DNA from: SAR202 cluster bacterium bin22
GTDB taxonomy: Bacteria; Chloroflexota; Dehalococcoidia; Lucifugimonadales; UBA3495
Reading direction: 5' to 3'
NCBI GenBank assembly: GCA_002238505.1
Contig: MPMM01000024.1
Coordinates: forward strand, 1 to 42,454
DNA length: 42,454 nt
A program made the position numbers and the translations under genes. Positions 1,866 through 23,914 of the stretch are shown piece after piece; the first letter of the stretch is position 1; every line of letters begins with the position of its first letter. The notes beneath the pieces were generated by a model, which ran no database searches, was not told the DNA's origin, and was given only the letters and a program-made list of their open reading frames with translations.

Positions 1866-2987
1866 TCACGCCGCTCGTTGAGGCCGACCGCTAAAGATAA
1901 AGCGCTCGAAGGGCAACCTGTCTGGGGGCGGATCTTCTGTTCGGTAATACGACCTAATCGAAAGGTCGCACATTACGTAGCCCCAATTAATCAGCTTAGA
2001 TTTCTCAGCAATGTTGAAGGCATTCAACCGGGTCCTGATGGAGCCAAAATGATCCCTCCATTCCGGCCTTACCACGAAGGGGCTCGGAATGGGGTAGTTT
2101 TGGATGTTGGTGTTCCCGTACCACAGTGCTCCCTTTTTCAAGCCGTTTTCAAAGTCCTCTACGAGTTGATGTCGCCTTATCGCCCTGGTCTGCTCCACCG
2201 CGGCTGCCATTGGACGCATAACCCGGTGATTGAACTGCCTGGCGAATCCTCTGCTCTTAGTTGGGCTCAAAGGGGAACTTCCGTCAGACACGAGCATTGT
2301 GGTGCAGTCCCGTATGGCATGCACTCCGAGATTATCGTAAGCTCCACCATCGGTTAATGACATCCGTCCCTTCAAATCATCTCTATGGAACAAATCGGCA
2401 TATCGGGTCTTCATAAATGCGTTAGGGTCCAAATCTAGCCTAACGGCTGGGAAAAATGGCGGGCAGGCGGACGAAGCCGCGATGGCTTTAGCGAGTGTGA
2501 GGTCGGGAATCTCAATGTCGCCAAGGCGCCAAGTGTGAAGACCAGCCTTCGACAGGGTGCAATTACGCCCCGTTTCAAGGTGGGCCGTGTTGAAAATGAA
2601 CTGGGGTTCGTCGGGCAGGTCACGCAATACGGCATCGCCGACGAGATGCCTGCGGTAGCTTTGCTCCAGTTTCCTGGTGCCACTGACCAACCCCATTATG
2701 AAAGCCGCCCGGTCAATATTAATACTGCAGAATTGCCAGGCCGGCTCGACGATTTCTTGATGGAAATTGACCGCGACTCCTTTTTGAAAGTTCAGCTTGT
2801 GCCACTGAACAGCCAGCAGTCCGGCCAAAATGGATCCCCCAGAGACGGATGAAAAAATCCCGATCTCGGGAAGCATGGCTAGTTCATTGAGGCGCCAGAC
2901 TGCACCTAGGTGGAACAACGTCGCTCGGAAGCAGCCCCCGGAAAGGGCAAGTCCTGCTGCACCGGATTCATTCATTTGTCTAGTCAA
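1866..2987 (-). CDS. Patatin-like phospholipase (candidate effector)
   Basis: A 373-residue protein of the patatin/cPLA2-like lipase fold. An oxyanion-hole motif is seen at residues 16-21 (SGGCFR). The nucleophile elbow is SVSGGS with Ser49, a form common in bacterial members that replace the first Gly of GxSxG. The catalytic Asp is in DGG at residues 213-215. Family members hydrolyse acyl esters of membrane phospholipids. In CBASS, patatin proteins such as CapV are membrane-degrading effectors. The open frame starts at TTG 2987, but ATG 2975 (residue 5) is a likely alternative. It lies 233 bp downstream of the E2-E1-JAB gene on the same strand and is probably its functional partner. No signal peptide or transmembrane segment is evident, so it is likely cytosolic until activated. 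The catalytic dyad is complete; the effector role is inferred. Confidence 0.85.
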   Translation of the reverse strand: MTRQMNESGAAGLALSGGCFRATLFHLGAVWRLNELAMLPEIGIFSSVSGGSILAGLLAVQWHKLNFQKGVAVNFHQEIVEPAWQFCSINIDRAAFIMGLVSGTRKLEQSYRRHLVGDAVLRDLPDEPQFIFNTAHLETGRNCTLSKAGLHTWRLGDIEIPDLTLAKAIAASSACPPFFPAVRLDLDPNAFMKTRYADLFHRDDLKGRMSLTDGGAYDNLGVHAIRDCTTMLVSDGSSPLSPTKSRGFARQFNHRVMRPMAAAVEQTRAIRRHQLVEDFENGLKKGALWYGNTNIQNYPIPSPFVVRPEWRDHFGSIRTRLNAFNIAEKSKLINWGYVMCDLSIRSYYRTEDPPPDRLPFERFIFSGRPQRAA

Positions 2988-3220: not shown

Positions 3221-5437
3221 TCATAGATAAACACCGAGCTCCCTCCCTTCTCCAATGATGCACATTAGCCCCGTCTCGCCAGTCTCCTCCAAACCGGACC
3301 GTATCCAATTCAACAGCCTCTGATCATTGGCACTGGGTTTCACACTGTTCCCATCAGGATGGGAATGCCATTCGCCAATGTAGTCCAAGTTCGAGCCAGT
3401 TATATTCGCTATCCGCTCAACCTCCTCAGACAACCCTTTGGTTCCGCGGATGTAGCTTGTCTTGAGTTCTTCACTATCCGAGGGCGACGGCAACGCATCG
3501 ACTACGTACAGTATCTTACGGGTTCGGTCGCGAGATCCGATGAGGACCCCTCCTGTCTCATTGGGTAAGCGGCTTTCGCGCATTTGAGCCAATCTGTCCA
3601 ACAGCTCAGAATCATAGATTACCGTCCAATCTTCTCTGGTGATTTTGACCGGCGCTGCCGGCTCTAAATCCATCACGAGCAAATAGTTGTCATTTTCGTC
3701 CAATAACCACGTGCGGACCAGAGCTCTATCATTTTCGGCAAGCCGCTGCACGGCTCGGCTTCCCATACCACTATGCATCACGACATCGTTCTGGGAGATT
3801 TCCGCCGACAGGTCGCGGCAGGTCTGTCCTGTTCTGTTTCGACTCGGATTGTCTAGTAAGGACCCCAAGCTATTGTCTTTCACCAAGGCCCGGTAAAATT
3901 GCATTTCCAGCGAATCCAGTTGTATTTCGCGGCCGGCGTCTTCAGCTAGTACAGTCAATGCGCTGCCTGACGGGTTCAGAAACAAAGACACCCTGCGAGC
4001 TTCGCTTCGGATGTCATGCACCAAATGCCTGGATACCGGTATAGACGCAGCCATATCCAGTATCAGGTCTGAATCCCGGTACTCAGCTTCCAATTCCCCC
4101 GATTTTTCTCCGGGCATCAGAACATTCGCAACGATTGACCGGACCGGGGGCTCTTCGGGCATAATTGAGGAAAGCTCGGCTGCAAGAGCATCTGCTTTAT
4201 GCCAACCCAAATACGACGCACTCAGACTATGGCGAGCCAGATTATGGGGATGCAGCACATCCTCATCTACTATCGTGAACTTACCATACCCTGAGCGGGT
4301 GAGATTGGTTAAGACCGGAGATCCGATTGCCCCTGCTCCGATTGCCACCACCTGCGGCTCAGGAATTACTTCGCTCAGTCCGTTCGAACGCCTTGCCATT
4401 TGCCTGGTGAGGACTTCCCTAACGTTCAATACCGTGAGCCTCGTTTGAGGGTTTCCGGCATTGTTCACCGTGCCACGCCATTGAATTCCCAGACGGGCCC
4501 CTATTATCCCGACGCTCTCCTCCGCTCGGAAAGCTCTTATCTCTACGTATTCAACGGGACCTCCATATCGCCGTCTTTTGGGAAGTCGGATCACAATTAA
4601 TAGCTGGGTGGAGAGGACTCCTGCTAATTGGGGTGAACTGAGACGTCTTTCCCAGCGTTGGAAGATCTCTTGCAATTGCTGGATAACATTTACCCTGCCT
4701 GAAGAAAGGAGCCCATCCAATTCTCCTAATGTCCGCGGCGTAGAATGTATAAGTCCATGCGTCATTGGCCTGGACTGCATGACCACTACCGTGTATTGAT
4801 CTGCTACGCCAGTCTTGGGCAAACCCGTTAATTCACTGAGCAACAGAGTATATTCACCATCCAAACGATCAACACGCACGCTTTGAGCCCAGCTATACGC
4901 CAACCGCGGCAAGCTGAGGAGTGAACTTGGGACCACTAAGTCTGAATACGACCCAAGCAGCAGCGGTTCCAAGGGCTGGTCCGGTTGATGCAACGTACCG
5001 TGGGCAGTCCCTTCGAGCCACCAAACGATACGTCCCAGGAACCTTGCCCCAGTCCAATCGAATTTGACCTCGTGCCACGGTTGGTCGTAAAGGCATAGAC
5101 TTCGGTACTCTCCCGCGTTTTGCAGATTCGTATGGGGGGCGTACGGGAAATCTGGTCTTGGAGAGAAAACGCCGGGGGGGACGTGGTCATCAGACAAAAA
5201 CCGTATCGCGATTTCTTCCTTGGCCCTGATATCGTGAACTGGACGCTGTGGCACTGAAACGGTCACTTCGATTTCCAGCCATTCCACCCTACGGTCGGAC
5301 GATTGCCAGCAGCCGGACAACTGCGCACCCTTAATGTGTGCAGCACCCAGATAGTCGGCAAACTCTTTGGCTCTTGGAATAAGGAGAGCGTCGGCTTCAA
5401 CTTTTTCCAACGCTCTACCAGCATCGGATGTTCCCAT
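3221..5437 (-). CDS. Single-chain E2-E1-JAB ubiquitin-type conjugation/deconjugation protein
   Basis: A 738-residue three-domain protein. Residues about 1-180 resemble the bacterial E2-like domain of Cap2-type proteins, with candidate catalytic Cys115 in SLCLYDQPW and a following WWLEGTAHGTLH segment. Residues about 355-575 are a ThiF/E1 adenylation domain: GAGAIG at 367-372, Asp391/393, NLAR 399-402, Lys414, Asp461, and candidate E1 Cys540 in GQTCRDLS. Residues about 610-738 are a JAB/MPN peptidase with a complete JAMM set (Glu627, His691-x-His693, Ser702, Asp705). Type II CBASS normally splits these as Cap2 (E2-E1) and Cap3 (JAB). Here they are fused, so one chain could attach and remove a modifier. 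It starts at ATG 5437, 14 bp after the metallo-beta-lactamase gene, and is surely co-transcribed. No ubiquitin-like gene or CD-NTase is nearby. Domain calls are confident; the substrate is unknown. Confidence 0.92.
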   Translation of the reverse strand: MGTSDAGRALEKVEADALLIPRAKEFADYLGAAHIKGAQLSGCWQSSDRRVEWLEIEVTVSVPQRPVHDIRAKEEIAIRFLSDDHVPPGVFSPRPDFPYAPHTNLQNAGEYRSLCLYDQPWHEVKFDWTGARFLGRIVWWLEGTAHGTLHQPDQPLEPLLLGSYSDLVVPSSLLSLPRLAYSWAQSVRVDRLDGEYTLLLSELTGLPKTGVADQYTVVVMQSRPMTHGLIHSTPRTLGELDGLLSSGRVNVIQQLQEIFQRWERRLSSPQLAGVLSTQLLIVIRLPKRRRYGGPVEYVEIRAFRAEESVGIIGARLGIQWRGTVNNAGNPQTRLTVLNVREVLTRQMARRSNGLSEVIPEPQVVAIGAGAIGSPVLTNLTRSGYGKFTIVDEDVLHPHNLARHSLSASYLGWHKADALAAELSSIMPEEPPVRSIVANVLMPGEKSGELEAEYRDSDLILDMAASIPVSRHLVHDIRSEARRVSLFLNPSGSALTVLAEDAGREIQLDSLEMQFYRALVKDNSLGSLLDNPSRNRTGQTCRDLSAEISQNDVVMHSGMGSRAVQRLAENDRALVRTWLLDENDNYLLVMDLEPAAPVKITREDWTVIYDSELLDRLAQMRESRLPNETGGVLIGSRDRTRKILYVVDALPSPSDSEELKTSYIRGTKGLSEEVERIANITGSNLDYIGEWHSHPDGNSVKPSANDQRLLNWIRSGLEETGETGLMCIIGEGRELGVYL

Positions 5438-5451
5438 TAGACGACCGCCCC

Positions 5452-6582
5452 TTATCCTGCCCTTTCGCTCCTTCTTTCGGTCATGCGCCGACTCCCCTCA
5501 GGGGTTGTTGAACTGCCGGCAACCACGGTGGCACCTAGACCCAAGCCCCGCACTTCCACCTTCATGGGTTTTGGAGCCTCCTTGGTCGGGTGTTCCATAG
5601 TGACCTTGAACTGTCCCTTTTTCGCTTTGGATACCTTTCGATAATACTCGGCAGCCTGGACATGGGGCGGTTGAGTTTCGTCCCCCTCTGGGACCACGTT
5701 GCTAGGTGACACCAGGATAGCCCCTTCTCGACTGTAATGTGCGTACAGGCGGGCCACCTTCTCCGTAGGCTCGGTTATGTCTTCCCCTTTGTCAGGAGCC
5801 AAGGACTTGTAGCTGCAATGATGTGGAACCTTTATCAGATCCCATTCCAGTCGATCAGCGTTGCCTGCCTTTTCGGTTACTTTGACTATGTCTTCCAGCA
5901 CATCATAGGGTGCGTCGGCAGTCAGCCAAACCTTTACGTTCTTGGTCCCGTCCTTCAGCGTCAGGTGGAACACTGAGGACTCGGAGTTGCGATCAACTTC
6001 GTTATTGCCTTCATTTTGGTAGGAAAAAGGAGAGTGGACAAATATCTCTGCGCCGGCACTATCCATATTGAACCCAGGCATACAATTCCCGGCGGTCACG
6101 ATCAAGTGCCGCCGCTTGTCCGGGTCTATACCCGCATCCTTCAGCCACTTGTCGAGGGCCTTGGGCTCGGAAATTACCCGGATGCCCTTCCCTTCCTTCA
6201 AGCGATAGCGCGCTTCAGCCTGAACGATCCGGCCTTCTTCCGACTGCTCCCAGCGGCTCTCCAGTATGGCGGCCGCGGGGACCCACATCTCCTTCATTTG
6301 GATTCGTCCTTCGCCTTGGTATTTCTTCGCGTGCTCCAAATAAAAGAACTCGGAGGCGCCGGCGAAATGGTCCGTATCCAGGTGACTGAAGGAAACCACG
6401 TCGAAGTAATCGCGCCCAGACTCGGCCAGTCTATTTCTGAGCTCCTCCGCCAGGTCTACCCGTTTGTCTCCGTCGCCCTGATTTTTGGGCGAAGCGAAGT
6501 CAAACAACAGTTGACTTCCATCGTCTGCAGTTAGCAGACAGGTGTCGGCATTACCGACCGGGAAAAAGGTTATATCGCTCAT
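5452..6582 (-). CDS. ComEC-like metallo-beta-lactamase-fold hydrolase with C-terminal Gly tail
   Basis: A 376-residue metallo-beta-lactamase-fold protein. The metal motif is SHLDTDH (His67, Asp69, Asp71, His72), the HxDxDH form typical of ComEC-type members. LTADAPYD (Asp223) and KVPHHCS (His254-His255) complete the site. ComEC relatives cleave phosphodiesters in nucleic acids, so a nuclease or nucleotide hydrolase role is plausible but not shown. Residues from about 345 form a low-complexity, probably flexible tail ending in Arg-Ala-Gly-COOH. Ubiquitin-like modifiers and type II CBASS CD-NTases are joined to targets through such an exposed C-terminal Gly, which makes this protein a candidate substrate of the neighbouring E2-E1-JAB protein. 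First gene of the operon; ATG 6582 has a strong upstream GAGGAG. Metallo-beta-lactamase genes beside bacterial E1/E2/JAB genes have been described, from memory. Confidence 0.88.
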   Translation of the reverse strand: MSDITFFPVGNADTCLLTADDGSQLLFDFASPKNQGDGDKRVDLAEELRNRLAESGRDYFDVVSFSHLDTDHFAGASEFFYLEHAKKYQGEGRIQMKEMWVPAAAILESRWEQSEEGRIVQAEARYRLKEGKGIRVISEPKALDKWLKDAGIDPDKRRHLIVTAGNCMPGFNMDSAGAEIFVHSPFSYQNEGNNEVDRNSESSVFHLTLKDGTKNVKVWLTADAPYDVLEDIVKVTEKAGNADRLEWDLIKVPHHCSYKSLAPDKGEDITEPTEKVARLYAHYSREGAILVSPSNVVPEGDETQPPHVQAAEYYRKVSKAKKGQFKVTMEHPTKEAPKPMKVEVRGLGLGATVVAGSSTTPEGSRRMTERRSERAG

Positions 6583-6654
6583 AATTCCATCTCCTCAATT
6601 GGACGGCTCTGTCTACTAATGATTAGTGACCGGCATCGTCAAAGTCTTATATCC

Positions 6655-6683
6655 ATTATAGCAAATGTTGTAAGGACTTACAA
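6655..6683 (-). promoter_or_regulatory. Promoter of the MBL/E2-E1-JAB operon
   Basis: On the minus strand TTGTAA (6683-6678) is followed, after exactly 17 bases, by a perfect TATAAT (6660-6655), then about 70 bases of leader to the ATG at 6582. Spacing and -10 box are canonical for a housekeeping sigma factor. The -35 is embedded in the palindrome listed next. Confidence 0.7.
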
Positions 6684-6685
6684 CA
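6666..6685. promoter_or_regulatory. Palindromic operator for the Crp-family regulator
   Basis: A perfect inverted repeat with 9-base arms, TGTTGTAAG and CTTACAACA, separated by two bases. The length and symmetry suit a Crp/Fnr dimer. It lies in the divergent intergenic region and covers the -35 box and part of the spacer of the leftward operon promoter. A related half-site (TTTACAA) sits at 6704-6710 towards the regulator gene. Binding by the adjacent regulator is inferred from position. Confidence 0.65.
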
Positions 6686-6755
6686 AAAGTAGTCAGAACT
6701 ACATTTACAAAGCGACAGTGAACGCTATACTTAACGACAGCACCGGGGAGGTGAG

Positions 6756-7523
6756 ATGGCCATGCCTGTTGAGATTGCTGGATTTGCTCAAGTTCTCGCT
6801 CGCTGTGTGGATTTCGATACCGTTGAACCGCCGGAGTTGGAAGTTGTCCTTGCTGAAGCCAACGAGGTGCTCGAAATGGAGTTCGCTGAACCATCGGTGA
6901 ATTCGACACTAATCAGGTCTGGGTCTCAGTTCACGCACCTGCTGTTCGTTCAACACGGTACCGTCGTTCCATTACAGTATCCTTACTCAGAATTGGAAGC
7001 TCCATTCCTGATTGGCGACCATGAGTTCCTAATGGAGGCAGAACGATGGGTCGCCAGCTATTCGGCGATTACCGAAAGCTTCGTCGTGTGGATTCCAGTT
7101 TCAATAATGCAGCTAGTGGTCGAGCACATCCCAACTGTACGTAGCAGAATGCACCAATTGGTAATGCGTCGCCTGGCACGTTTCTATTGGACATCGTTAG
7201 CTACTAGTGGCACTGCCTCGTCCCGTGTGGCCGCGGCGCTTGTTTCTAGGCTTGCACTTTCGAGCACCGACTCCGGCCAAGAGCGCGAAATTCCCATTAG
7301 GCAGAAGGACCTGACGCGCCTAACTGCGATGTCCCGGTCCGCTGTCGCAGACGGGTTGACTGCATTGGCGAATGAACGGGTAATTCGCTTAGGCACTTCC
7401 GGTACATCAAGATTTGCAGGCATTGTGATGATTCCAGATGTAGACCTTTTGAAAGACCATGCGTTTGAGGTGGTTAAAGGCAAGGAAATCCGCTCTTTGC
7501 TTTCTCAGTCTGATGAGGAATGA
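6756..7523 (+). CDS. Crp/Fnr-family transcriptional regulator
   Basis: A 255-residue protein with an N-terminal cyclic-nucleotide-binding-type beta barrel (about residues 45-125: LIRSGSQFTHLLFVQHGTVV, then LIGDHEFLMEAERWVASYSA), a long dimer helix, and a C-terminal winged helix (about 180-212: IRQKDLTRLTAMSRSAVADG). The Arg-x-Ala phosphate-binding signature of cAMP-binding members is not evident, so the ligand is probably something else. ATG 6756 follows GGGGAGG closely; ATG 6762 is equally possible and has more usual spacing. It is transcribed divergently from the MBL/E2-E1-JAB/patatin set across a 173-bp gap holding a perfect palindrome, so it probably controls that set and itself. A nucleotide- or redox-responsive regulator for the module is a plausible inference. 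Confidence 0.85.
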   Translation: MAMPVEIAGFAQVLARCVDFDTVEPPELEVVLAEANEVLEMEFAEPSVNSTLIRSGSQFTHLLFVQHGTVVPLQYPYSELEAPFLIGDHEFLMEAERWVASYSAITESFVVWIPVSIMQLVVEHIPTVRSRMHQLVMRRLARFYWTSLATSGTASSRVAAALVSRLALSSTDSGQEREIPIRQKDLTRLTAMSRSAVADGLTALANERVIRLGTSGTSRFAGIVMIPDVDLLKDHAFEVVKGKEIRSLLSQSDEE

Positions 7524-20104: not shown

Positions 20105-23100
20105 TTGATCATAGTGGTGGCTGACGCGATTGTTCCTTTGGTTTTATCTGTGGCAACCAGCATAGTCAAAGATGTCGGAACGGCCGGGCTACGCAGATAC
20201 CTTGCTCAAAGGCAAGACCTGGTGGGCAATGCCATTCAAGGGACGAGTGCTCTATTCCCTGATTTAGAAGGTACGAGACCGGCCCTCTTCCAGTGGACAT
20301 CGAGCGAGGCGTTCATTGCCTTTATTGATAGTGTTTACAACGGTGACCGTTTTGCCGACGCAGAGTTCGTTAGTTCATTTATCAATGACGGCGGTTTTTA
20401 CTTGCCCATTGGTGCTGAATGCGAAGAGGTTTCCCAAGAGATTGTTATTGCTTTTCTTCGGGAGTTGTCAGCAACTCTATATCGAAGTGATGAGGGTATC
20501 CCAACACTAGCGAATCGTATTGAAGTACTACACGAAGAGACAAGGGGTGAGTTCGCTAGACAATTTGGTGATGTTTCCGCTGACCTCAAGGCTGACATTG
20601 CTGACATTCCGCGAATGGTTGCCCAAGCAATGGCTCTGGCTGCCCCCAACTTGCCTGAAATGCCCCAGGATGCGGAGCACACCGAGCTCTCAAAGGAAAT
20701 AGATTTTGCGGCAGAGCTAATAAATCGAGGCTTAATTGGCGCGGCGCGCAGGGAACTGGAACGGATAGAGAGCCAAGTCGAATCAATCCCAGATCAATTA
20801 AAGTTTCGGATTATCACGAACCTGGGAGCTTGTGCACTTGCCGAAGAGGACAATACTTGCGCTCGCGCATTATTTGAACAAGCCCATAGTATTTTACCAG
20901 GGAACCAGAAAGGACTCGCGAATGCCGCTTTAGCGGCGCAACTTGCGAATGACGCCGAGGCTGCTATTTCATTGGCAGAAAAAGCTCGCGAACTTAGTCC
21001 GCAAGATTCCCAGGCGACATCGGTACTGATTGAAGCATATTGGGGTATTGGTAGCGAAGATCAACTGGAGGAGCTAGTTGCTTCGGAGGATTGGATAAGG
21101 CAGGACTATCAGTGCCTCTTGGCCCTAGCGAGTGTACGAATGAGCCAGTGCCGTTGGCAAGAGGCTGTTACGTTGTGTCGATTGGCAATTGACAACGATT
21201 CCAAGGATGCCTATGCCCACTTGGCCTTAAGTCAAACTTTCCTCAAGTACGCTCAAGCTCAAAGCCAATTACTCGGCTTCACGAAAGAAGCAGCGGAACT
21301 TTTGGATGAGGCGGATGCGGAGGCTACGTACGCATTGACTTGCCTGTCGGAAACACAAATTAACACTCAAATCCTGCGTGGTCGAGTGATTCGAGCCTGC
21401 GCCAGAGTCCTGCTGGGCAAAACCGGTGATGCTATTCAGGATTTTGATGCGGTGTTAATGGTTGATCCAACCCATGCCGATGCCGCCTTTAACAAGGGTC
21501 TTCTTCTTCTTCAAGAGGGAAAGCCTGCCGAAGCTCGTCAATTATTCGAGAGGATCCAAGACCCAGATCGAAGAGAGGACGCGGAGGCGCCCCTTGCCGA
21601 AGCATGCCTCGTGAGCGGAGATGCGTCAGCTGCAGTCAGATTACTTAGAGGCAAGTCAACTATAGATTGCCCCTGTTGGGATGACATCCACCGAGCTGAA
21701 ATCTTGTGTCAAGCAGAGGCGAAATTAGGGGAAGAGGATTCTCTGGAATACCTCCTTAAAGAAGCGTTGCTCCACCATCCGAGCAATTCCTTGCTGCTCA
21801 CACTAGACTCGACTTGGCGCACTGTTCACGATGATGTAGAGGGCGCTGAGAAGTCCATCCTCTTGGCCCTCGAATGCAGTGGTGACGAAGACCATTTGCG
21901 CATTCTTATCCGCGTAGCCGCGCACTTTCAGGCAACGGGCAAGTTCTCCGAAGCCGCTGACTGGTGGGGCGAAATTGTTGGAGGGTCTGCTTCCCAGCCA
22001 GTCGCGATTCCCTATCTGGCCTGCCTGGTGAACAGCAAGCAGCTTCGCGAGGCACTCGAATGGGCAAGAAAAATTCAAGAGAATCAATCGTACCCACCTC
22101 GGATGGTTTACGAAGTGGAGGCACAGATTCTTCAATATATCGGTGATGTTCGTGCTGCTGTTCGCGCATACCAATTGCTCTGTGGCCATGAAGACTCTAC
22201 TCCTGTTGATCAGGTCATGCTGGCGCTTGCCCAGCTTCAGTCCGGTGACCTTGATGCAGCCTCGGTCACAGTTCTCAACATAGACTCTTCAGATTTGGGT
22301 CGCGACCCGCGCAGTCTCCTCAACCTAGCTAAAGCTAAACTCCTGCTTGGAGTGGAGGGTTACCTTCAAGACGGTTATGTGGCCCGTCGTTGTGGTATGG
22401 ACGACCCGCAGACCCATCTCGGTTTCTTCTTGCTGTTTCAAAGTCGTGGTGATGATTGGAAGGAACCTGAGACTATAGGTCCTGGTTGCGCCGTGCTACT
22501 TAAGGGGGAAAGCACAGAGCAATGGTGGCATATATTGGAGTGGGGTGAAGAGTCTCAAGATCGGCGTGAGTTGACCACGGACCATGAACTCGCACTTAAA
22601 CTTAGAGAAAGGAAGGTCGGAGACGTTATCATGCTTCGGCATGGGCTTGAAGATCTTTCCTACGAAGTAGTGGCAATTCAGAGCAAGTTCGCACGTGCCT
22701 TCCAAGAGATTAGTGAGGACTTTTCAACCCGCTTCCCCGACAACACGGGGTTCTTCCGCATGAAAGTGGCGGGGGACGATCTTTCAAAACTCTTCGAAAC
22801 GGTGGAACAACGCAATAAGTTCTGTACGGAAATGGAGCGGCTGTACGCCGAGGGGACGCTGCCGTTCGGCACCTTTGCATCCCAGGTAGGTATGTCTGCA
22901 CTTGAAGCGTGGAAGGCAATTACTCTAAGCAAGTCCACCCGTATTCGGTTTAGCAGTGGCAATGAGCAAGACGCTAGCGAAGCGCTCACTCACCTGCAAC
23001 AGGCAGACGGCCTAGTCTTGGATGCGGTTGCGCTCCTTACAGTTCACCATCTCGGTCTTGGTGATCATCTACGGAATCGCTATTTGCGTGTTGCAGTGCC

Positions 23101-23914
23101 TCAGCAAGTGATAGACGACATTCAACAGTTACTTTTTCAATATAGGGTAAATGGCCCTGAGTCAAGCTACCTGGGTATGGACAGCCAGGGCCGACACAGA
23201 ATGACCGAGATGCCTCTTGAACACTGGTTGGAGCGTCGCGACTATGTTCAATCGGTTCTGCATTTGGCTCAGTCGTTTGAACGCATTGCAGGGTATCGTC
23301 TGCTCGATTATGAGAACCGCGATGAGCTTTTCGATGTTTTGACGGCAGCAGGTGTAGGTGCCGCATATGCTGGTGACGAACATTCGGCAGCCAACTTGGC
23401 TCTAGTGTGCGACGATCTGGTTTTAGCCAACTACAGTCGTACTCTTGGGGTCAGTGTAGTGAACACTCAGGTCGTTCTAACTGATTTATATCGTTCCCAG
23501 AAAATCGACCGCGGCCTTTATTCCTCCTATGTTGAGGAACTTGCTGGTCTGAATTACTGGTTTATCCGGGTAGCTCCGGAAGACCTTGTCCAGCGCCTTG
23601 AAACGAATGGTTATATGACCACAGCTGGAATCCATGCGATGCTCAACACGCTGGCTGGGCCGGATTGTACTCAAAGTTCCGCCGTATCTGTAGGGGCCAA
23701 GGTAATTATTGAATTGGCGGCGATAGCTCCCCTTGCCCAGGTGGAGCTGGTGCTGTCGGCGGTGATGGCCGCACTACGTCGAGGACGGGCTCTTATACCT
23801 GTCCTGCTGGAATTAAGAAAGTCTATTAGTGAGGCGCCTACTCTCTCTCCTTACACTCGTAATTGCCTTCTCCAAACAATAGACCTGACACATCGGCTTT
23901 CGAGGTTAATGTAG
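20105..23914 (+). CDS. Large TPR protein with GreAB-C-like and PIN-like C-terminal domains
   Basis: A 1,269-residue protein. The open frame starts at TTG 20105; GTG 20114 sits about ten bases after GAGG and is a better start. Residues 1 to about 190 form a helical domain I cannot name. Residues about 195-780 are a long superhelix of TPR-like repeats (RALFEQAHSILPGNQKGLAN, DAAFNKGLLLLQEGKPAEAR). Residues about 800-890 resemble the GreA/GreB C-terminal fold (KVGDVIMLRHGLEDLSYEVV, FSTRFPDNTGFFRMKV). Residues about 965-1135 look like a PIN nuclease domain, with Asp in LVLDAVALL, an acidic ENRDELFD and CDDLVLANY. TPR proteins that carry a PIN domain fit an RNA-cleaving conflict system; activity is inferred. 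The gene is AT-richer than the glycan cluster. A hairpin follows the stop. Confidence 0.75.
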   Translation: MIIVVADAIVPLVLSVATSIVKDVGTAGLRRYLAQRQDLVGNAIQGTSALFPDLEGTRPALFQWTSSEAFIAFIDSVYNGDRFADAEFVSSFINDGGFYLPIGAECEEVSQEIVIAFLRELSATLYRSDEGIPTLANRIEVLHEETRGEFARQFGDVSADLKADIADIPRMVAQAMALAAPNLPEMPQDAEHTELSKEIDFAAELINRGLIGAARRELERIESQVESIPDQLKFRIITNLGACALAEEDNTCARALFEQAHSILPGNQKGLANAALAAQLANDAEAAISLAEKARELSPQDSQATSVLIEAYWGIGSEDQLEELVASEDWIRQDYQCLLALASVRMSQCRWQEAVTLCRLAIDNDSKDAYAHLALSQTFLKYAQAQSQLLGFTKEAAELLDEADAEATYALTCLSETQINTQILRGRVIRACARVLLGKTGDAIQDFDAVLMVDPTHADAAFNKGLLLLQEGKPAEARQLFERIQDPDRREDAEAPLAEACLVSGDASAAVRLLRGKSTIDCPCWDDIHRAEILCQAEAKLGEEDSLEYLLKEALLHHPSNSLLLTLDSTWRTVHDDVEGAEKSILLALECSGDEDHLRILIRVAAHFQATGKFSEAADWWGEIVGGSASQPVAIPYLACLVNSKQLREALEWARKIQENQSYPPRMVYEVEAQILQYIGDVRAAVRAYQLLCGHEDSTPVDQVMLALAQLQSGDLDAASVTVLNIDSSDLGRDPRSLLNLAKAKLLLGVEGYLQDGYVARRCGMDDPQTHLGFFLLFQSRGDDWKEPETIGPGCAVLLKGESTEQWWHILEWGEESQDRRELTTDHELALKLRERKVGDVIMLRHGLEDLSYEVVAIQSKFARAFQEISEDFSTRFPDNTGFFRMKVAGDDLSKLFETVEQRNKFCTEMERLYAEGTLPFGTFASQVGMSALEAWKAITLSKSTRIRFSSGNEQDASEALTHLQQADGLVLDAVALLTVHHLGLGDHLRNRYLRVAVPQQVIDDIQQLLFQYRVNGPESSYLGMDSQGRHRMTEMPLEHWLERRDYVQSVLHLAQSFERIAGYRLLDYENRDELFDVLTAAGVGAAYAGDEHSAANLALVCDDLVLANYSRTLGVSVVNTQVVLTDLYRSQKIDRGLYSSYVEELAGLNYWFIRVAPEDLVQRLETNGYMTTAGIHAMLNTLAGPDCTQSSAVSVGAKVIIELAAIAPLAQVELVLSAVMAALRRGRALIPVLLELRKSISEAPTLSPYTRNCLLQTIDLTHRLSRLM

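Follow-up and report, generated by a model that had tools for sequence, protein, structure and literature searches.

In type II CBASS, the C-terminal glycine of cGAS becomes linked to Cap2 as a thioester, and the conjugation raises signalling; the C-terminal Gly or Ala of the cyclase is kept only beside Cap2/Cap3 (PMC10097602). Conjugation of the cyclase is reversed by Cap3 (PMC11153139). According to a 2025 review, no system other than Cap2 is known to activate a protein that lacks the beta-grasp fold, and the same review predicts that there are others (PMC12355090). E1, E2 and JAB proteins are also found in the Bil and Bub systems, where the modifier is a beta-grasp ubiquitin-like protein (Ubl). 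In Bil, the JAB enzyme trims BilA, a Gly-ended precursor, and exposes a reactive Gly (PMC11354881). A further arrangement was described as operon type 6a by Iyer in 2006, where, in the part of the text that is available, a triple E2-E1-JAB protein almost always adjoins a metallo-beta-lactamase (MBL) (PMC1779556). NCBIfam holds curated models under the name '6A-MBL', and the family title, from which alone the label is known, calls this an anti-phage system. The name fits operon type 6a, and hence the operon type is known. A search of the literature for '6A-MBL' by name found nothing. Conjugation of the MBL is not described in the accessible literature; the idea of the MBL as the conjugated protein may already be in print.

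Here, we describe an operon of this kind in the window, by which we mean the whole analysed stretch of 42,454 nucleotides (contig MPMM01000024.1 of SAR202 cluster bacterium bin22). The genes are as follows.

5452..6582, minus strand: MBL-fold enzyme of 376 aa, ComEC-like (NCBIfam NF058524 '6A-MBL_enzyme', 378.1 bits against a cut-off of 220)
3221..5437, minus strand: E2-E1-JAB fusion of 738 aa (NCBIfam NF058523 '6A-MBL_cap2_3', 616.5 bits against a cut-off of 320; Pfam Prok-E2_A, ThiF and Prok-JAB)
1866..2987, minus strand: patatin-like phospholipase, the third gene and a candidate membrane effector (Pfam PF01734, 4.8e-16); a gene in third position recurs in relatives
6756..7523, plus strand: divergent Crp-like regulator, 72% identical to a copy beside a CBASS operon

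The MBL and the fusion both score far above the curated '6A-MBL' cut-offs, and judged by these profiles the window operon, with the same two core genes, is a member of 6A-MBL and of an operon type already known. The two genes are separated by 14 bp (the start codon of the fusion lies at 5437), and tight coupling is also seen in 22 of 25 annotated loci, with gaps of -20 to +17 bp.

The fusion protein carries three domains.

4922..5269, minus strand: E2 domain, residues 57-172 (Pfam PF14457), with the catalytic Cys115 at 5093-5095, present in 46 of the 46 fusions aligned there
4013..4384, minus strand: E1 adenylation domain, residues 352-475 (Pfam PF00899), with the catalytic Cys540 at 3818-3820
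3308..3607, minus strand: JAB isopeptidase domain, residues 611-710 (Pfam PF14464), with E627, H691, H693, S702 and D705

The E1 nucleotide-site residues G367, D391, R402 and K414 and the E1 cysteine C540 are found in 47/47 aligned fusions. Among the same 47 fusions the E/H/H/S/D set of the JAB domain is kept wherever it is aligned, some rows being cut short there, with the exception of locus L080. The nearest solved structures to the E1 part are Cap2 entries. The E2-E1 (Cap2) and JAB (Cap3) parts of type II CBASS are thus represented with intact catalytic residues, fused in one protein.

A complete type II CBASS is encoded in the same genome on contig C12 (L101, G000:C12:36000-45000), with a cyclase ending in RGGRFG, Cap2, Cap3 and a TIR-SAVED effector. 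Upstream of it and divergent lies the second copy of the Crp-like regulator (L101 7682-8446). These two copies, next to the MBL operon and the type II CBASS respectively, are the only ones in the genome, and hence one kind of regulator would serve operons with either a cyclase or an MBL beside E2, E1 and JAB. We regard the Crp-like protein as a candidate new controller of immune operons. In other genomes, WYL-domain regulators or pairs of helix-turn-helix and ImmA/IrrE proteins are located upstream of the MBL operon. By annotation these resemble the CapW and CapH+CapP types, which control CBASS and Bub operons (PMC13373217).

Like type II CBASS, the window operon has the E2-E1 order, a JAB domain, an effector gene and an enzyme whose flexible tail carries a conserved C-terminal Gly; within this genome the two also share their kind of regulator. 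However, a ComEC-like MBL takes the place of the cyclase, which in this genome sits in the separate operon on contig C12. Cap2 and Cap3 are separate proteins in type II CBASS, whereas E2-E1 and JAB form one protein here, and MBL homologues of the window type often carry residues after the Gly, unlike the proteins of type II CBASS. Because the cyclase is absent, the operon is not a type II CBASS, though it probably works like one.

The part of the MBL that would correspond to the conjugated end of the cyclase is its C-terminus.

5455..5517, minus strand: disordered C-terminal tail, residues 356-376 (pLDDT under 50, about 30)
5455..5463, minus strand: Arg-Ala-Gly terminus, candidate adenylation/conjugation site (R and G in 17/17 of the core clade)

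The protein ends in ...TERRSERAG*, with AGG GCA GGA TAA as the last codons, and the sequence confirms the Arg-Ala-Gly end 14 bp ahead of the fusion gene that an earlier note on this DNA had pointed out. That note had placed the end of the MBL fold near residue 345. In close agreement, the AlphaFold2 model, built on eight sequences, shows the MBL fold ordered as far as about residue 353, and for residues 356-376 the pLDDT drops to near 30 (<50). Homologues of the MBL were gathered from plasmids, whole genomes and viral contigs and collapsed at 70% identity to 39 non-redundant proteins. Phage records gave no match to the MBL; viral contigs gave none in a first scan and seven by profile scan. Nearly all collected homologues adjoin an E2-E1-JAB gene, the exceptions being contigs or genes that are cut short, for example at locus L074, where the contig ends, and at locus L044, where a transposon follows. 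As the core set we took the 17 closest non-redundant MBLs including the window protein, to which the others are 37-48% identical. The partner gene is seen intact alongside in all but two of them. Throughout the core set, Arg occupies position -2 and Gly position 0 (17/17 each), while position -1 is Ala in 15, Val in one and Gln in one. None of the 25 upstream positions outside the motif exceeds 2.6 bits, and the tail is otherwise variable. The Gly or Ala expected at the end of an enzyme beside Cap2 is therefore found as Gly in every core protein; 15 stop exactly at it and two add three or four residues. Aligning the homologues that lie beside E2-E1-JAB genes, the check that the earlier note had asked for, thus bears out the conservation of the Gly among close relatives.

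A nearly invariant Arg-Ala-Gly in a floppy tail, among relatives this divergent, suggests that the MBL itself is probably joined to other molecules. We consider it quite probable, from the sequence comparisons, that the operon encodes a type II CBASS-like system whose conjugated protein is the ComEC-like MBL in place of the cyclase, with an exchangeable membrane effector. This degree of confidence belongs to the conjugation part, and we would place much less in any particular activity of the MBL. In the proposed pathway the E1 domain would adenylate the C-terminal Gly of the MBL, which would then be passed on as a thioester to Cys540 of E1 and Cys115 of E2. E2 would then attach the MBL through its C-terminus to an amine group, carried by a protein or possibly by a lipid. 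The JAB domain would cut the conjugate and, in homologues with residues after the Gly, would also trim the precursor. In a last step, conjugation may license or localise the MBL, which would control the membrane effector, here the patatin, so that infected cells are killed or arrested. The first four steps are much better supported by the sequences than this last one. The proposal of the earlier note that E1 may activate the Gly and JAB may release it is supported by the homologue comparison. Its reading of the MBL as a self-contained tagged enzyme has to be enlarged by the third operon gene, encoding a patatin or a membrane protein, and by the type II CBASS in the same genome.

The third gene varies between loci. 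A patatin follows the E2-E1-JAB gene in many of them. Elsewhere the third position is taken by membrane proteins with predicted transmembrane segments that belong to several unrelated families. One family comprises L050 8094-8882, L081 7947-8675, L084 7900-8691, L093 about 5740-6534 and L100 about 6470-7209, which share a motif like ENxxYGFRRNLxGxKP; its members in L050, L081 and L084 gave no convincing family in Pfam or PADLOC. Another is formed by proteins of L052 and L096, the one from L052 being weakly like a CBASS 2TM effector (E 0.001). Singleton membrane proteins occur in L035, L049 and L091, and some third genes weakly resemble PDC-M48A/Csx27. The window patatin has no match in PADLOC, and we do not claim it as CapV. 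A patatin paralogue on contig C4 of the same genome has no evident defence operon around it. CBASS operons, too, combine a fixed core with membrane-acting genes that can be exchanged, and by this analogy the killing step is placed in the third gene: exchangeability and gene order suggest that it does the killing. The putative link from the MBL to the patatin is drawn from gene order.

An alternative for this downstream half of the pathway, fully compatible with the conjugation steps, is that the MBL itself kills as a ComEC-like nuclease that conjugation sends to phage or host nucleic acid, the patatin being an accessory. We hold this to be possible, although tentative. In the PDB the MBL model best matches the ComEC MBL domain (9ic4, Z 22.5, rmsd 3.6 over 262 aligned residues), ComEC is also the top relative by sequence profile, and RNA-cutting MBLs (RNase J, RNase Z and CPSF73) make up much of the remaining list of fold matches. 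The predicted metal ligands are also conserved.

6367..6384, minus strand: metal motif HLDTDH (H67, D69, D71 and H72), invariant in 14 aligned homologues
5914..5916, minus strand: D223, predicted metal ligand, invariant in the aligned set
5818..5823, minus strand: H254-H255 of a PHHCS motif, invariant in the aligned set

From the ComEC-type motif, H67, D69, D71, H72, D223 and H254/H255 are the predicted metal ligands. Furthermore, two-gene operons exist that lack a clear effector; operons of the E. coli/Klebsiella type have no obvious third gene. However, the second-best fold match is phosphorylcholine esterase, and hence the fold does not settle the chemistry of the MBL. The exchange of the third gene between patatin and unrelated membrane families likewise speaks for a killing function outside the MBL.

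In the 22 divergent homologues the residue before the Gly is mostly H, A, Y or F, and 18 of them have one to six residues after the Gly that show no evident conservation. The motif thus takes the forms RAG, HG or (F/Y)G in these proteins, where the tails are Gly-rich and it is partly our choice which Gly is taken as that of the motif. The earlier note had claimed a C-terminal Gly. The motif Gly is indeed kept, but the final residue is not always Gly, since one to six further residues follow it in 20/39 homologues. A maximum-likelihood tree groups all 17 core proteins in one clade with full support. RAG is found again in the E. coli/Xanthomonas branch, which is deeply separated from this clade, and other branches have HG or (F/Y)G. 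Extensions of one to six residues are scattered over the tree with the Gly motif retained. Scattered, unconserved extensions behind a constant Gly fit a precursor that is trimmed by JAB.

Two trivial explanations of the motif were considered and rejected. Chance from a Gly-rich tail is out for RxG. It occurs among the last residues of 24/39 non-redundant homologues, and when the tail of each was shuffled, 2000 rounds gave 0.6 on average and never more than 5. The exact-end form R[AVQ]G was observed 16 times in the 39 homologues against a mean of 0.08. These shuffles covered RxG-type motifs, the HG and (F/Y)G variants lying outside them. A ribosome-binding site of the next gene is not the cause either, as the codons for R (AGG, CGC, CGG, CGT and AGA), A and G differ synonymously among the homologues, which indicates selection on the protein and no overlapping ribosome-binding site, and the Gly persists at loci where 68-95 bp separate the two genes.

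Three conserved residues at the end of a disordered tail would look alike if they served the E2-E1-JAB protein for docking or recognition, or marked the MBL for degradation, and were never covalently joined to anything; such a peptide could also tolerate extensions after the Gly. We regard this as unlikely. From branch to branch the residues beside the Gly change (RAG, HG, FG, YG) but the Gly itself stays, the catalytic residues of E1, E2 and JAB are intact, and the conjugation of the cyclase is a demonstrated precedent. Conjugation of some other protein, for instance a beta-grasp Ubl from another locus, with the MBL as an effector whose end is conserved for other reasons, has the related Bil and Bub systems in its favour (PMC11354881, PMC13373217), but is very improbable. 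The MBL and E2-E1-JAB genes lie within about 20 bp of each other in 22/25 loci, too close for a Ubl gene to fit in between, the available part of Iyer 2006 lists the triple protein and the MBL only (PMC1779556), and MBL relatives that lack the partner also lack the tail motif.

The last point comes from a comparison with more distant or second MBLs, 32 in all, among which 30 have a readable end and are without a known Gly-tail partner. The Gly-tail motif was found in 0/30, and three of the 30 end in a plain Gly without the motif. The 30 include four second MBLs that lie within these operons or close to them. Around the distant ones, flanks of about 1.5 kb contained no match to E2-E1-JAB. An MBL ending in DRYAG, exactly at Ala-Gly, was first taken as a control (L102, G045:C22:31000-41000). 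It belongs to an operon of MBL, E2-E1 without JAB and patatin, and lies on a separate branch as a distant variant. An exception to the link between motif and partner is the MBL of a Runella plasmid (L105 4444-5544), which ends in KPWQRG. Genes for a SEC-C protein and a membrane protein come after it; no recognisable E1 is located within about 4.5 kb on either side.

To return to conjugation of the MBL, the tailed protein differs from the modifiers of Bil and Bub in that it has no beta-grasp fold, the model being an MBL fold over residues 1-353. It seems rather likely, on comparative grounds, that a ComEC-like MBL, which is neither of ubiquitin fold nor a cyclase, is conjugated through its Gly, is trimmed by JAB in many relatives and drives an exchangeable membrane effector, and would thus be, besides the cyclase and unrelated to it, another kind of enzyme that bacterial immunity employs as a ubiquitin-style modifier. 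If true, the MBL would be the second activated protein without a beta-grasp fold, and E1/E2/JAB modules could be plugged onto different enzymes via a bare Gly tail. The tail motif would then serve as a sequence test for this conjugation. The text available on type 6a and 6A-MBL does not describe the tail motif, its candidate role or the exchangeable third gene.

A ComEC-like MBL is also part of PADLOC PDC-M48, together with a Csx27-like membrane protein. Some of the operons contain, or lie next to, a second ComEC-like MBL without a Gly tail (L053 7980-9050, L052 8695-9774 and L099 6293-7366), and the one in L053 is a PDC-M48B (E 7e-153). In contrast to the window protein, these second MBLs lack the tail, and the PADLOC models are listed without E2-E1-JAB. 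Further along the window, at 20105-23914, a large TPR protein carries the PIN domain of the TPR-GreAB-C-PIN conflict system (Pfam PF20698) and may be a further defence gene.
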